Part shown: positions 29,400 through 43,485 of the stretch, piece after piece
Layout of the letters: the number at the start of each line of letters is the position of its first letter
Numbering within the stretch: position 1 is the stretch's first letter
NCBI RefSeq assembly: GCF_000022205.1
Contig: NC_012029.1
Coordinates: 1,860,001-1,924,000, forward strand
DNA from: Halorubrum lacusprofundi ATCC 49239
Lineage (GTDB): Archaea > Halobacteriota > Halobacteria > Halobacteriales > Haloferacaceae
Length of the DNA: 64,000 nt
Reading direction: 5' to 3'
Translations under genes and position numbers: made by a program
Notes under the pieces: model-generated
Told to the model about the DNA's origin: nothing
The model's input: only the letters and a program-made list of their open reading frames with translations
Database searches by the model: none

Positions 29400-29552
29400 G
29401 GTCGCGCTCCGGCGCGGCAAGGAATAAACGGCGCGGGTTCCGACGAGACCCTTTTTAGTGGCTCCGCGTCGAACCGCCGGCATGGTCGACGATATCCATC
29501 ACACCAGTCACATCCGTCACACCCGCCACGCCCGCGGACCGCGGAGGCACCG

Positions 29553-30947
29553 ATGATAGATATCGCGATCTCCGCCACTCGGGTCGTCGCGGCGCTCGTG
29601 TTGGTCGTGTTGAACGGCTTCTTCGTCGCCTCCGAGTTCGCCTTCGTCCGCGTCCGCTCCACCTCGGTCGAGCAGCTGGTCGAGGAGGGGCGCCCCGGCT
29701 CGGGAGCGCTGCAGGACGTGATGGGGAGCCTCGACGACTACCTCGCGGCGACGCAGCTCGGGATCACGCTCGCCTCGCTCGGGCTCGGGTGGGTCGGCGA
29801 GCCCGCGATTGTGGCGCTGATCGAGCCGGCGCTCGGACCGCTGCTCCCCCCGAACCTCGTCCACATCGTCGCGTTCGCGATCGGGTTCAGCATCATCACG
29901 TTCCTCCACGTCGTGTTCGGTGAGCTGGCGCCGAAGACGATCGCCATCGCGCAGGCCGAGCGGGTCGCGATGATGTTGGCGCCCCCGATGAAGCTCTCCT
30001 ACTACCTGTTCTCGCCCGGCATCGTCGTGTTCAACGGGGCGGCTAACGCCTTCACGCGCATGCTCGGCGTCCCGCCGGCCTCGGAGACGGACGAGACGAT
30101 GAAGGAGCGCGAGATCCGCCGCGTGCTCGCGCGCTCCGGCGAGGCCGGTCACGTCGCAGACGTCGAAGTCGAGATGATCGACGCCGTCTTCGAACTCGAC
30201 GACACCGTGGTCCGGGAGGCGATGGTCCCCCGACCGGACGTGACGAGCATCCCGGCCGGCGCGGACCTCGCCGCGATCCGCACGACCGTACTCGACGCGG
30301 GTCACACCCGGTACCCGGTAGTAGCGGCTGACGACGCAGACCGCGTGGTCGGCTTCGTTGACGCGAAAGACGTGTTGCGCGCGGGTGAAGCGGGTGACGA
30401 GTCGGTCACGGCTGCCGATCTCGCACGCGACCTCGTGATCGTTCCGGAGACCACGTCGCTGAGCGATCTGCTCGTGCAGTTCCGCGATGAACGCCGTCAG
30501 ATGGCCGCCGTCGTCGACGAGTGGGGCGCCTTCGAGGGGATAGTCACCGTCGAAGACACGGTCGAGACGCTCGTCGGCGACCTCCGCGACGGCTTCGACG
30601 CCGCGGGCGGCGACCACGCGGTTCGGAAGACCGGGGCGGGGGCCTACGAGGCCGACGGGTCGGTCTCGCTATCCGTCGTCAACGACGCGCTCGGCACCGA
30701 CTTCGACGGCGACGGGTTCGAGACGCTCGGCGGACTCGTGCTCGATCGACTCGGTCGCACCTCGGAAACCGGGGATACGATCGCGGCCGGCGACTACCTC
30801 TTCGAGGTCACGGCGGTCGACGGCGCCCGCATCTCGACAGTCCGGATCGAGGAGGTCGACGAAGGCGACGAAGTCGACGGCGAGGACGAGGTCGACGGAG
30901 CCGGTGACGGGGCCGATGACGAATCCGGCGGGGCGGACGGCGCCTGA
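29553..30947 (+). CDS. CNNM/CBS-domain membrane protein (hemolysin C/CorC family)
   Basis: This 464-residue protein has an N-terminal CNNM/DUF21 membrane domain with about four helices (about 8-190; typical FVASEFAFVRVR motif), a CBS pair (about 205-330) and a C-terminal CorC_HlyC domain (about 350-430). The family is thought to transport or sense Mg2+/Co2+, though direct proof is limited. It ends in an acidic Asp/Glu/Gly tail. The ATG at 29553 begins directly at the membrane domain. Confidence 0.9.
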   Translation: MIDIAISATRVVAALVLVVLNGFFVASEFAFVRVRSTSVEQLVEEGRPGSGALQDVMGSLDDYLAATQLGITLASLGLGWVGEPAIVALIEPALGPLLPPNLVHIVAFAIGFSIITFLHVVFGELAPKTIAIAQAERVAMMLAPPMKLSYYLFSPGIVVFNGAANAFTRMLGVPPASETDETMKEREIRRVLARSGEAGHVADVEVEMIDAVFELDDTVVREAMVPRPDVTSIPAGADLAAIRTTVLDAGHTRYPVVAADDADRVVGFVDAKDVLRAGEAGDESVTAADLARDLVIVPETTSLSDLLVQFRDERRQMAAVVDEWGAFEGIVTVEDTVETLVGDLRDGFDAAGGDHAVRKTGAGAYEADGSVSLSVVNDALGTDFDGDGFETLGGLVLDRLGRTSETGDTIAAGDYLFEVTAVDGARISTVRIEEVDEGDEVDGEDEVDGAGDGADDESGGADGA

Positions 30948-39648: not shown

Positions 39649-40544
39649 TCGGAGCCGTGAGCGACACCGTAACCGGCCCCGATCAACGCTCGATCCCCGA
39701 CCTCCTCCAGTACCTGCTAGTGCTGTCGCGGCCGCGGTTCTGGCTGTATCTCGCCGGTCCCGTCGCCGTCGGCGTCACCTACGGAATTGCCGACGTGAGC
39801 GAGCTGTTCACGCCGGTCACTGTCGGGCTTGCGGCGTACTTCCTCGTGCCGGCGAACGTCTTCCTCTACGGCGTCAACGACGCCTTCGACGCCGATATCG
39901 ACGAGCTGAACCCGAAGAAAGAGGGTCGCGAGGCGCGCTGGCGGGGCGACCGACTCGTCGCACTCGCGGTGGTCGTCTCCGGCGCGCTCGGGGTCGCCGT
40001 ATTCGCGATCACACCGCGAGTCGCATGGCCGTACCTCGCCGGCTTCCTGCTTCTCGGTGCCGGCTACAGCGCCCCGCCAGTGCGGTTCAAGACGACGCCG
40101 TTCCTCGACTCCGTCTCGAACGGATTGTACATCTTACCGGGTGCGGCCGCGTACGCTGCCGTGTCCGGGACGCACCCACCGATCGCGGCGCTCGCGGGCG
40201 CATGGCTCTGGGCGATGGGGATGCACACCTTCTCTGCGATCCCCGACATCGAGCCGGACCGCGCCGCCGGGATCCGGACGACGGCGACGCTTCTGGGTGA
40301 GGGGCGGACCTACGCGTACTGCGTCGCCTGTTGGGTCGCCGCCGCGGTCGCGTTCGCCGCGGTCGACATCCGGCTCGGCGTGCTGCTCGGCGTGTACCCC
40401 GTCTTCGCGGCGTGGGTCGCCCGGTCGTCGATCGCAGTCGACCGCGCGTACTGGTGGTTCCCGGCGCTGAACACCGCCGTCGGCACCCTGCTGGCGATGG
40501 GGGGACTCTGGCGCGTCTACCCCGTCACGGAGGCCCTCGCGTGA
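39645..40544 (+). CDS. lyeJ: Lycopene elongase/hydratase LyeJ (UbiA-type prenyltransferase)
   Basis: This 299-residue membrane prenyltransferase adds C5 units to lycopene on the way to bacterioruberin. Asp-rich motifs NDAFDADID (about 80-90) and PDIEPDRA (about 200) coordinate Mg-diphosphate. About eight membrane helices are visible. Start GTG 39645 overlaps the crtD stop; GTG 39657 is an alternative. The stop overlaps the cruF start. Confidence 0.88.
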   Translation: MIGAVSDTVTGPDQRSIPDLLQYLLVLSRPRFWLYLAGPVAVGVTYGIADVSELFTPVTVGLAAYFLVPANVFLYGVNDAFDADIDELNPKKEGREARWRGDRLVALAVVVSGALGVAVFAITPRVAWPYLAGFLLLGAGYSAPPVRFKTTPFLDSVSNGLYILPGAAAYAAVSGTHPPIAALAGAWLWAMGMHTFSAIPDIEPDRAAGIRTTATLLGEGRTYAYCVACWVAAAVAFAAVDIRLGVLLGVYPVFAAWVARSSIAVDRAYWWFPALNTAVGTLLAMGGLWRVYPVTEALA

Positions 40545-41422
40545 GCGACCCCGCCGAATCCGCCGCAACGTCGGGACGACTCGGCGCGCTCCGCGCCCGA
40601 CTTCCCGACACGCGCCGCGAGGCGGAGCGTCTGCTCGACAGAATCGTCCGCGAGAACCGGTTTACGATTGCCGTGCTGTTCCCCCTCGTCGGTGCGATCG
40701 CACTCGTCGGCAGCGCGGAGGGGTGGGTGCCCGAGCCGCTCGCGTTTAACCCGTGGTTCGTGCTGTTCGGTGTGCTGGTGATGCGGTCGCCGCTCGTCGT
40801 CGGGGTGTTGCCCGCGCTCGACCGCCGCGCGGTCGGGTGGCTCGGGGTGCTCGTCGCGTACACCTACGCGATCGAGCTGTTCGGCGTCGCCACCGGGTGG
40901 CCCTACGGCACCTTCGAGTACACCGTGAGCCTCGGGCCGATGCTCGGCGGGGTGCCGCTGGCGCTCCCCGTCTTTTTCATTCCGCTCGTGGTGAACGCCT
41001 ACCTGCTCTGTCTGCTGCTTCTCGGCCCGCGGGCGTCGAACGGGTGGCTCCGGCTCGCGACCGTGATCGCCGCGGTGGTCGCGATGGATGTGGTGCTCGA
41101 CCCCGGCGCCGTCGCGCTCGGCTTTTGGAGCTTCGGCGGCGGCGCCTTCTTCGGTGTTCCCCTCTCGAACTACGCCGGCTGGGTGTTGTCGGCGACGGTC
41201 GCGGTGGTCACGCTCGACCGCGCGTTCGAACTTGGGGCGCTCGGCGATCGACTGCGCGACTGCGAATTCATGCTCGACGACATGGTGAGCTTCGTGATCC
41301 TCTGGGGCGGAATCAACCTCTGGTACGGGAATCTACTCCCCGCCGCCGTCGCGGTCGCATTCGGCGTCGGGCTCGTCCGCGCCGACCGATTCGATGCGAC
41401 CCTGTTCACGCAGTGGCGGTGA
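40541..41422 (+). CDS. cruF: Bisanhydrobacterioruberin hydratase CruF
   Basis: This 293-residue, roughly eight-helix membrane protein completes bacterioruberin by adding water at the end groups. The DVVLDPGAVALGFWSF and GVPLSNYAGWV segments are typical of CruF-like hydratases. Start GTG 40541 overlaps the lyeJ stop (GTGA), so crtD-lyeJ-cruF is translated as a chain. Pathway assignment rests on gene order plus family. Confidence 0.88.
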   Translation: MSDPAESAATSGRLGALRARLPDTRREAERLLDRIVRENRFTIAVLFPLVGAIALVGSAEGWVPEPLAFNPWFVLFGVLVMRSPLVVGVLPALDRRAVGWLGVLVAYTYAIELFGVATGWPYGTFEYTVSLGPMLGGVPLALPVFFIPLVVNAYLLCLLLLGPRASNGWLRLATVIAAVVAMDVVLDPGAVALGFWSFGGGAFFGVPLSNYAGWVLSATVAVVTLDRAFELGALGDRLRDCEFMLDDMVSFVILWGGINLWYGNLLPAAVAVAFGVGLVRADRFDATLFTQWR

Positions 41423-41471
41423 GGTCGACCGACTCGCGACTCCTTATATACGCCCCACCATTCCGGTACGT

Positions 41472-41516
41472 ATGAGCGTTTGCGTCACGGACCATCGAGC
41501 GGAGGAGACCGAATGA
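41472..41516 (+). CDS. Fourteen-codon upstream ORF coupled to dacZ
   Basis: ATG at 41472 opens a 14-residue frame (MSVCVTDHRAEETE) ending in TGA at 41514-41516, which overlaps the ATG of dacZ (ATGA). A TATA element at 41444-41450 lies about 25 bases upstream of this ATG, so leaderless translation would begin here, not at dacZ. GGAGGAG within the small frame is the probable ribosome-binding site for dacZ. The peptide has no known homology; a regulatory leader peptide is inferred. Confidence 0.6.
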   Translation: MSVCVTDHRAEETE

Positions 41517-42070
41517 GCGGGCTCGCGATCGAGTACGGCACCCATGATCGGGTCCGGGAGATCGTCGATCGGCTGACCTACTGCGCCGAACACGTCAGCG
41601 TCGCGTTCGACGGCTGGGACGAGCCGCACGTCAAGGGGCCGGGGCTCTACTTCGCGGTCGTCGCCGACCGCGGCTACGGCGCGTACGCCGACCCAATGGG
41701 CGACAACCGGTGGCCCCGAAAGAGCTGTACCACGGTGTTCGACGAGGACGCGTTCGTCGACGCCGTCGAGACGGTGAGCGTCAAGCGGGACGGCGGGATC
41801 GTCGTCGCGGTCGACGGCGAGATAGAGGCACAGATGGTGCGGTTCCGCGACCTTGGCACCCGGAGCGGCGAGTCCACCCTCGTCGACGACGTGAGCTACG
41901 AGCCGTGGATGGGGTCGCGGCATATGAGCGCGATCGAGACCTCAGTCCGGCCGGAGGTCGTAGCGACCGTGACGCTGAGCGAGGAGACCGGCCGGGTGAG
42001 CGTGTTCCGCAACGGCGACGCGGAGTCGATGGAGCGCAACGAGCTCGGCGGGGTGTGGCGCGTAGAGTAG
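41513..42070 (+). CDS. dacZ: Diadenylate cyclase DacZ (c-di-AMP synthase)
   Basis: This 185-residue soluble protein has a DisA_N-type domain that joins two ATP into cyclic di-AMP, in haloarchaea a signal tied to osmotic balance. Family features are the N-terminal REIVDRLTYCAEHVSVAFDGW, the central GPGLYFAVVADRGYGAYAD and the SRHMSAIETSVRPEVVATVTLSEETGRVSVF segment, here quoted in outline as the nucleotide-binding SRHxxA...SEETG pair. It sits beside a Na+/Ca2+ exchanger. ATG 41513 overlaps an upstream mini-ORF. Confidence 0.88.
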   Translation: MSGLAIEYGTHDRVREIVDRLTYCAEHVSVAFDGWDEPHVKGPGLYFAVVADRGYGAYADPMGDNRWPRKSCTTVFDEDAFVDAVETVSVKRDGGIVVAVDGEIEAQMVRFRDLGTRSGESTLVDDVSYEPWMGSRHMSAIETSVRPEVVATVTLSEETGRVSVFRNGDAESMERNELGGVWRVE

Positions 42071-42174: not shown

Positions 42175-43485
42175 GTGAACCTTCGCCACCCGCTCGTGGC
42201 CGTCGCTCTGACGCTCGTCTTGACGGTCCCGTGGGTCGGACTGTTCATTTCGTACGGGGGATACGGAACAGTCCACCCGGGAGAGAACGTGACGCCGCTG
42301 GCGGCGGTCGTCGTGGCAGGGGTCGCGATTCTCGGAGCAGCGTTTCTGCTCGCGTGGGCGGCCGAGACCGCGGAGAAAGACGTTCCGCAGGGATTCGCCA
42401 TCGCGGTTCTCGCCGTGCTTGCGGTCGCCCCGGAGTACGCGGTCGACGCGCTGTACGCGTGGCAGGCGGGCGCCGGATCGGCCGCGGCCGGAAATCTCGC
42501 GATCGCGAACATGACCGGTGCGAACCGTATCCTCATCGGGCTCGGGTGGTCTGGTATCGCGCTGTTTACGATCTATCGCGCCAAGACCACGCGTGATTCC
42601 GCAGTCGAACGCCGCCCAGGGTTCCTCACCGACGCGGTCACGCTCAACCGCGACCTCGCGACGGAGATCACGTTCCTCCTCGCCGCCACGGCGTACGCGT
42701 TTCTGATCCCGCTGCGAGGCGGGATCGGCCCGATCGACTCCATCGTGCTGGTCGGGCTGTTCGTGCTGTACATTGCCATCGTCATCCGAGGAGACGTCGA
42801 GGAGTCAGACCGACACGTCGGCGTTCCCGCCTACTTTCAAGCGTACCCGAAAGTGCCGCGGATCGCCGTCATTCTGTTCGGCTTCCTCTTCTCGGGCGCG
42901 ATCATCTTCACCGCGGTTCACCCCTTCGCAGAGGGGCTCGAACAGTTGGGGCTCCAGTACGGCATCCCGGAGTTCTTCATGATCCAGTGGCTCGCGCCGC
43001 TGGCCTCGGAGAGCCCGGAGTTGATCGTCGTCGCGTACCTCGTGAACAAAGCTCGCTCGACGGCCGGGTTCAACACGCTCATCTCCTCAAAGCTCAACCA
43101 GTGGACCCTGCTCATCGGAACGCTCGCGATCGTGTACTCGATCTCGGCCGGCGCCGTCGGCACCCTCTCGTTCGACGCCAAGCAGGCCGCGGAGATCTGG
43201 ATCACCGCGGCACAGAGCTTCTTCGCCATCGCGATCATCGTGAACTTCGAGATCAACGTGCGCGAGGCGGTCGTCCTGCTCGTGCTGTTCAGTTCGCAGG
43301 TCCTCACGGAGTTCTACGTCATCCGAACGTACGCTGAGCCGGCCGCGACCGAGGTGAGCATGACGGTGTTGTACGCGTACACCGCGGTCTACGCCGTCAT
43401 CGGTGTCGCGCTGTTCGTCAAGCGTCGGAAGAGCGCCAGCAAACTCGTTCGGCGTGCGATTTCGACGGCGCGGACCGCGTTGTGA
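42175..43485 (+). CDS. Sodium/calcium exchanger family antiporter
   Basis: This 436-residue protein has about eleven membrane helices and two alpha repeats. APEYAVDALYAWQAG is the first conserved ion-binding loop, and ASESPELIVVAYLVNKAR the second. Both carry the Glu-Pro-type signature of YrbG/CaCA exchangers. Start GTG 42175 follows a GGAG-like sequence; TATA-like GGAAAAATG is about 28 bases upstream. Location next to dacZ is suggestive of ion control by c-di-AMP, but no direct link is shown. Confidence 0.88.
   Translation: MNLRHPLVAVALTLVLTVPWVGLFISYGGYGTVHPGENVTPLAAVVVAGVAILGAAFLLAWAAETAEKDVPQGFAIAVLAVLAVAPEYAVDALYAWQAGAGSAAAGNLAIANMTGANRILIGLGWSGIALFTIYRAKTTRDSAVERRPGFLTDAVTLNRDLATEITFLLAATAYAFLIPLRGGIGPIDSIVLVGLFVLYIAIVIRGDVEESDRHVGVPAYFQAYPKVPRIAVILFGFLFSGAIIFTAVHPFAEGLEQLGLQYGIPEFFMIQWLAPLASESPELIVVAYLVNKARSTAGFNTLISSKLNQWTLLIGTLAIVYSISAGAVGTLSFDAKQAAEIWITAAQSFFAIAIIVNFEINVREAVVLLVLFSSQVLTEFYVIRTYAEPAATEVSMTVLYAYTAVYAVIGVALFVKRRKSASKLVRRAISTARTAL

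Follow-up and report, generated by a model that had tools for sequence, protein, structure and literature searches.

A leaderless upstream reading frame that probably delivers ribosomes to a DAC-like gene in Halorubrum

In mycobacteria, "coupled" small ORFs have been described that begin with a leaderless RTG, span 5-50 codons and end in an RTGA overlap with the next gene, and whose placement is kept while the peptide is not (Shell et al. 2015, PMC4633059). According to a 2025 review, such leaderless coupled ORFs are proposed to deliver ribosomes (PMC12548453). Leaderless transcripts make up 72% of the coding transcripts of the haloarchaeon H. volcanii, and GUG on leaderless mRNA is weak in two reporter studies, yet native cases exist (PMC4983044). 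Overlapping gene pairs of the same organism showed strict coupling in 9 of 9 cases, and SD motifs in its 5'-UTRs are present without de novo translation start (PMC6728339). Initiation on non-leaderless haloarchaeal mRNAs is therefore an open point. Here, a 14-codon frame of Halorubrum lacusprofundi that overlaps the start of a gene is compared with these systems.

The upstream frame and the gene it overlaps

The window is the whole stretch of DNA that was analysed, 64,000 nucleotides from H. lacusprofundi ATCC 49239, and coordinates refer to it unless another contig or locus is named. On its forward strand, the TATA box CTTATATA lies at 41443-41450 and scores 12.3 bits with a position weight matrix built on 108 promoter sites of the same genome. 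Its first T stands 28 nt 5' of the ATG of a 14-codon, putatively leaderless upstream ORF (uORF), MSVCVTDHRAEETE, which occupies 41472-41516 and closes with TGA at 41514-41516. Within this uORF, at 41501-41507 and 12 nt 5' of the gene start, is the Shine-Dalgarno-like motif GGAGGAG. The stop codon lies over the start codon of the downstream gene (ATG at 41513), forming ATGA at 41513-41516. These elements had been described in a first-pass annotation, and re-inspection of the sequence confirmed the coordinates, the 14-codon ORF, the ATGA overlap and the position of GGAGGAG inside the ORF.

A 464-kb sample of this genome was used for the spacing of leaderless genes and for a single-genome scan of the layout. 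Leaderless genes in this sample have their start codon 27-32 nt past the TATA box, and the 28-nt spacing of the uORF falls inside this range, so that its ATG fits a 5'-terminal start codon. In the scan, 6 TATA-spaced RTG starts with an overlapping stop were found, at 5 of the 297 promoter-led genes with an upstream gap. Control searches at wrong TATA distances returned 1, 4 and 3 matches for the same layout. Enrichment in one genome is weak and near the chance rate, and it is the conservation across the genus that decides.

The downstream gene (41513-42070, forward strand) sits between cruF (bisanhydrobacterioruberin hydratase, 40541-41422) and a Na+/Ca2+-exchanger-like gene (42175-43485), and encodes 185 aa. 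Its product matches Pfam DAC with 27 bits, which is at the 27-bit cut-off. The AlphaFold2 model has a mean pLDDT of 85, and its best PDB matches are diadenylate cyclases (Foldseek E 2e-7). D93, G94 and H137 are invariant in 51 aligned sequences, and the 185-aa protein carries the motifs DGG and SRHM compared with the catalytic DGA and RHR of DAC proteins. From the model and these matches, the protein is predicted to be a divergent DAC-fold (diadenylate-cyclase-like) paralogue, a putative c-di-AMP synthase-like protein. In haloarchaea, a family of DAC-fold proteins of about 185 aa can be observed, with DGA or DGG and (R/K)HxSA motifs; some genera have several of them in one genome, at times arranged in tandem.

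A second and better DAC match in the genome is a 269-aa protein at G000:C2:1452529, with an mscS-like ORF (named by inspection) on either side. H. volcanii has a dacZ-mscS2 operon with a DacZ of about 30 kDa (PMC6741144), and both the size and the mscS-like flanks of the 269-aa protein fit this operon, indicating a dacZ-like gene. The gene at 41513-42070 was rejected as canonical dacZ (HVO_1660 type, about 270 aa, mscS-type neighbour), being 185 aa long and beside cruF, with the dacZ-like gene elsewhere. It had been named dacZ in the first-pass annotation, which called c-di-AMP synthesis dose-critical; with the dacZ-like gene at another locus, the name is wrong and the argument is not supported here. 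The dacZ-like gene itself (G000:C2:1452529-1452891 and L065; 269 aa, with DGA and GARHMAG motifs) is without a comparable uORF. The TSS data of Braun et al. 2019 (PMC6741144) contain no leaderless or start-codon information for dacZ.

Conservation of the layout and of the peptide

The DAC-like gene is present in 52 of 52 genomes of the genus, and conservation was counted over the 51 distinct Halorubrum species with full sequence. In all 51, an RTG (ATG in 33, GTG in 18) stands exactly 28 or 29 nt from the TATA box and begins an open frame of 14-26 codons. One species has the degenerate TATA CTTACTGG, with the spacing unchanged. The uORF stop and the gene start overlap by 4 nt (ATGA) in 41 of the 51 species, including the H. 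lacusprofundi genome, and by 8 nt in 10; a uORF frame fused to the gene was found in none of the 51. Retention of the small frame in other Halorubrum, which the first-pass annotation had named as one way to check its proposal, is therefore complete in this set (51/51). In the GTG-start clade (e.g. L022, L059, L133), the DNA of the uORF hardly varies over its first 21 nt (GTGACCGACGGCGGCAATCGC), third positions included.

The gene itself shows little sign of a promoter at its own start. A TATA box 24-35 nt 5' of the DAC gene ATG is absent in the 51 species, with the exception of one weak 2.2-bit site. As for the SD-like motif, 34 of 50 loci have GGAGG at 9-16 nt 5' of the gene; a further 11 have GAGG or GGAG, and 5 have only GGGG.

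According to the DAC gene tree, the length of the uORF changed at least 18 times, and its frame relative to the gene changed only 2 times. Both frame-shifted groups have a stop 8 nt into the gene, TAG in one and TAA in the other. If one third of length changes are assumed to be in frame, the chance of the frame being kept in 16 of 18 is about 2e-6 by our own arithmetic. The noncoding spacer from the cruF stop to the TATA box served as internal control: on the same tree (48 taxa) it underwent 40 length and 23 frame changes, compared to 16 length and 2 frame changes for the uORF in those 48 taxa. The three frames are about equally represented in this spacer, i.e. its frame drifts freely.

These counts bear on the explanation that the frame is untranslated, with a conserved TATA box and purine start site, and with an open frame up to the overlap owed to chance or shared ancestry. 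The shortness of the stretch and the near-chance rate of such frames in one genome agree with it. However, the frame was kept in at least 16 of 18 length changes, a stop was kept in both shifted groups, and the RTG was never lost, whereas the adjacent spacer drifts, which makes an untranslated frame very improbable. Outside the genus, no uORF was found before DAC-like homologues in other genera or before paralogues, many of which have a TATA box at their own start. The DAC uORF appears confined to Halorubrum, and since homologues of the gene outside the genus appear to manage without it, the gene does not in itself require it.

The layout is conserved more than the peptide: frame and stop are kept in 51 species while pN/pS, pooled over equal-length groups, is 0.93. 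In the other two frames the ratio is 1.12 and 1.04. Values of pS are 0.253 for the uORF and 0.245 for the downstream DAC gene, for which pN/pS is 0.26. No codon-position pattern of the kind expected for coding sequence was seen in the uORF, changes being even over positions. The peptides are unlike between clades (MSVRVTD..., MSVQESR..., VTDGGNR..., METSVADE...), and an amino-acid-sensing test over the 51 species found neither a residue run conserved across clades nor a conserved run of a sensed codon. Start, frame and stop are conserved and the peptide is neutral. Judging from these patterns, the peptide would be disposable, and the start codon at the RNA end, the open frame and the stop at the gene start would be what selection keeps. 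The SD-like motif is probably also kept by selection.

A regulatory leader peptide would tune the DAC gene in an attenuator-like manner, by ribosome stalling at Cys or charged codons or at an arrest sequence. A uORF at the 5' end of the RNA is well placed for control, and one clade shows hardly any change in the first seven residues of the peptide, VTDGGNR. Against this, the peptide is neutral and dissimilar across clades, Cys exists in only 5 of 51 peptides, and the leader RNA (41472-41572) is no more structured than shuffles (z-score 0.72), so that no attenuator hairpin is evident; this explanation is improbable. The first-pass annotation had suggested coupling by a leader peptide, possibly sensing Cys or charged residues. 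The coupling part agrees with the conserved overlap, but the sensing part is contradicted by the neutral pN/pS, the rarity of Cys, and a net charge ranging from -5 to +4. A role in trans for the peptide, as a functional microprotein, is extremely improbable: haloarchaea commonly have small proteins (PMC4983044), but sequence, length and charge are all unconserved here.

The layout at other genes and the role of the frame

A second uORF of this layout exists in the window, 24 codons at 29482-29556 on the forward strand, before a gene for a CorC-type membrane protein (29553-30947, forward strand; name by inspection), to which it is coupled. Of 27 Halorubrum loci of this gene, 26 have the coupled uORF; with other genera added, the count is 41 of 45. 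In several genera the CorC-type uORF is 14-35 codons long and overlaps the gene start by 4 or 7 nt, in one case by 8 nt. Its stop may be TAG, TAA or TGA; the codon type varies and the place is nearly fixed. A five-species comparison of the window displayed the layout at exactly 2 of 60 called genes, the DAC-like and the CorC-type, both in 5 of 5 species, and a leaderless promoter at the own start of about 20 genes.

The single-genome scan had returned further candidates, and these were tested for conservation. Elsewhere in the genome, the gene of a Cdc48-type ATPase (L156:674-3009, equal to G000:C2:1730674-1733009) has a leaderless uORF of 37-40 codons in 30 of 30 Halorubrum loci, and in 39 of 55 loci when other genera are counted. 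Part of its peptide is conserved (GNRLIPxP, REE), so this uORF may have a function beyond that of a pilot, or may contain a second promoter. A gene of about 569 aa (L150:11725-13514, minus strand) has a uORF of 27-31 codons with a 4-nt overlap in 12 of 16 testable Halorubrum loci. A candidate uORF at a Trm5-like gene (L145) was rejected, being conserved in only 1 of 30; it serves as negative control, indicating that the conservation test is able to fail.

The 14-codon frame is probably a leaderless pilot ORF, one that would deliver ribosomes to the gene by termination and reinitiation. We infer that transcription starts at or beside A41472. Ribosomes would then initiate directly on the 5'-terminal ATG at 41472, read 14 codons and terminate at ATGA, where GGAGGAG would help them to start again at the ATG of the DAC-like gene, which overlaps the stop. 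Also in favour of this reading, the layout is kept at three other genes while the chance Trm5-like candidate is not. One counterpoint is the GTG-type start in 18 of 51 species, as GUG is reported to be weak on leaderless mRNA (PMC4983044). The first-pass annotation had taken the small frame, not the gene, as the first one translated, which is very probably so, given the TATA spacing in 51/51 and the lack of a promoter at the gene start. It had also proposed stop/start coupling with GGAGGAG as ribosome-binding site; with the overlap conserved and GGAGG in 34/50 loci, this is the best explanation if the motif is regarded as an aid to reinitiation.

A different use of the same coupling would be a negative uORF. 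It too would be translated and coupled, but it would be retained chiefly because it holds DAC output down, letting only a fraction of the ribosomes through to the gene. Reinitiation without SD is often reduced (PMC6728339), and the simpler arrangement would be a leaderless DAC start, which the homologues seem to use. However, no independent promoter or leaderless start is left for the gene, so that ribosomes seem to reach it mainly through the uORF, and a mainly negative role is unlikely.

Taking the pilot ORF as the preferred reading, it seems somewhat likely that haloarchaea hold a widespread and undescribed class of such ORFs, perhaps dozens per genome, in which only the 5'-terminal start codon and the stop at the next gene are conserved. 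If so, pilot ORFs would give archaea a way to load ribosomes onto genes that have no usable start themselves, and the class may include genes that are at present listed with a short 5'-UTR. A conserved 5'-terminal uORF that hands over ribosomes would explain part of the non-leaderless mRNAs, and the question is testable at the loci named here. Such frames should not be taken for sensing peptides or annotated as small proteins. The comparison of frame conservation with peptide conservation can be used to find more of them.

Relation to described systems

Several known systems share part of this layout. The uORFs of H. volcanii (Babski et al. 2016, PMC4983044) are also haloarchaeal small ORFs upstream of genes, 15-31 aa in size, but that survey covered only 5'-UTRs of 150-250 nt, and the Halorubrum case would count as a 5'-UTR of 41 nt. 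The 5'-terminal uAUGs of E. coli (Beck et al. 2016, PMC4965119) likewise place an AUG at the RNA 5' end before an SD-led gene, and some affect the downstream gene; unlike the Halorubrum frame, they are bacterial and stand on conventionally SD-leadered mRNAs. The overlapping pairs of H. volcanii (Huber et al. 2019, PMC6728339) have in common with the present locus the ATGA overlap, the SD inside the upstream frame and the haloarchaeal ribosome. The tested pairs are, however, annotated genes, and the upstream partner in Halorubrum is a 14-codon frame without a conserved product.

An archaeal leaderless coupled uORF is undescribed in the literature searched, and an earlier mention in ribosome-profiling studies of H. 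volcanii is possible. The closest likeness is to the mycobacterial coupled ORFs (PMC4633059), with which the Halorubrum uORFs (14-26 codons) share the predicted leaderless RTG, the small size, the RTGA overlap, and a placement that is kept without the peptide. The mycobacterial ORFs are bacterial, and the Halorubrum case is archaeal, with a TATA promoter. Compared to the mycobacterial ORFs, haloarchaeal overlaps include 7 and 8 nt besides 4, and the conservation of the frame extends over 51 species, with a spacer as control.
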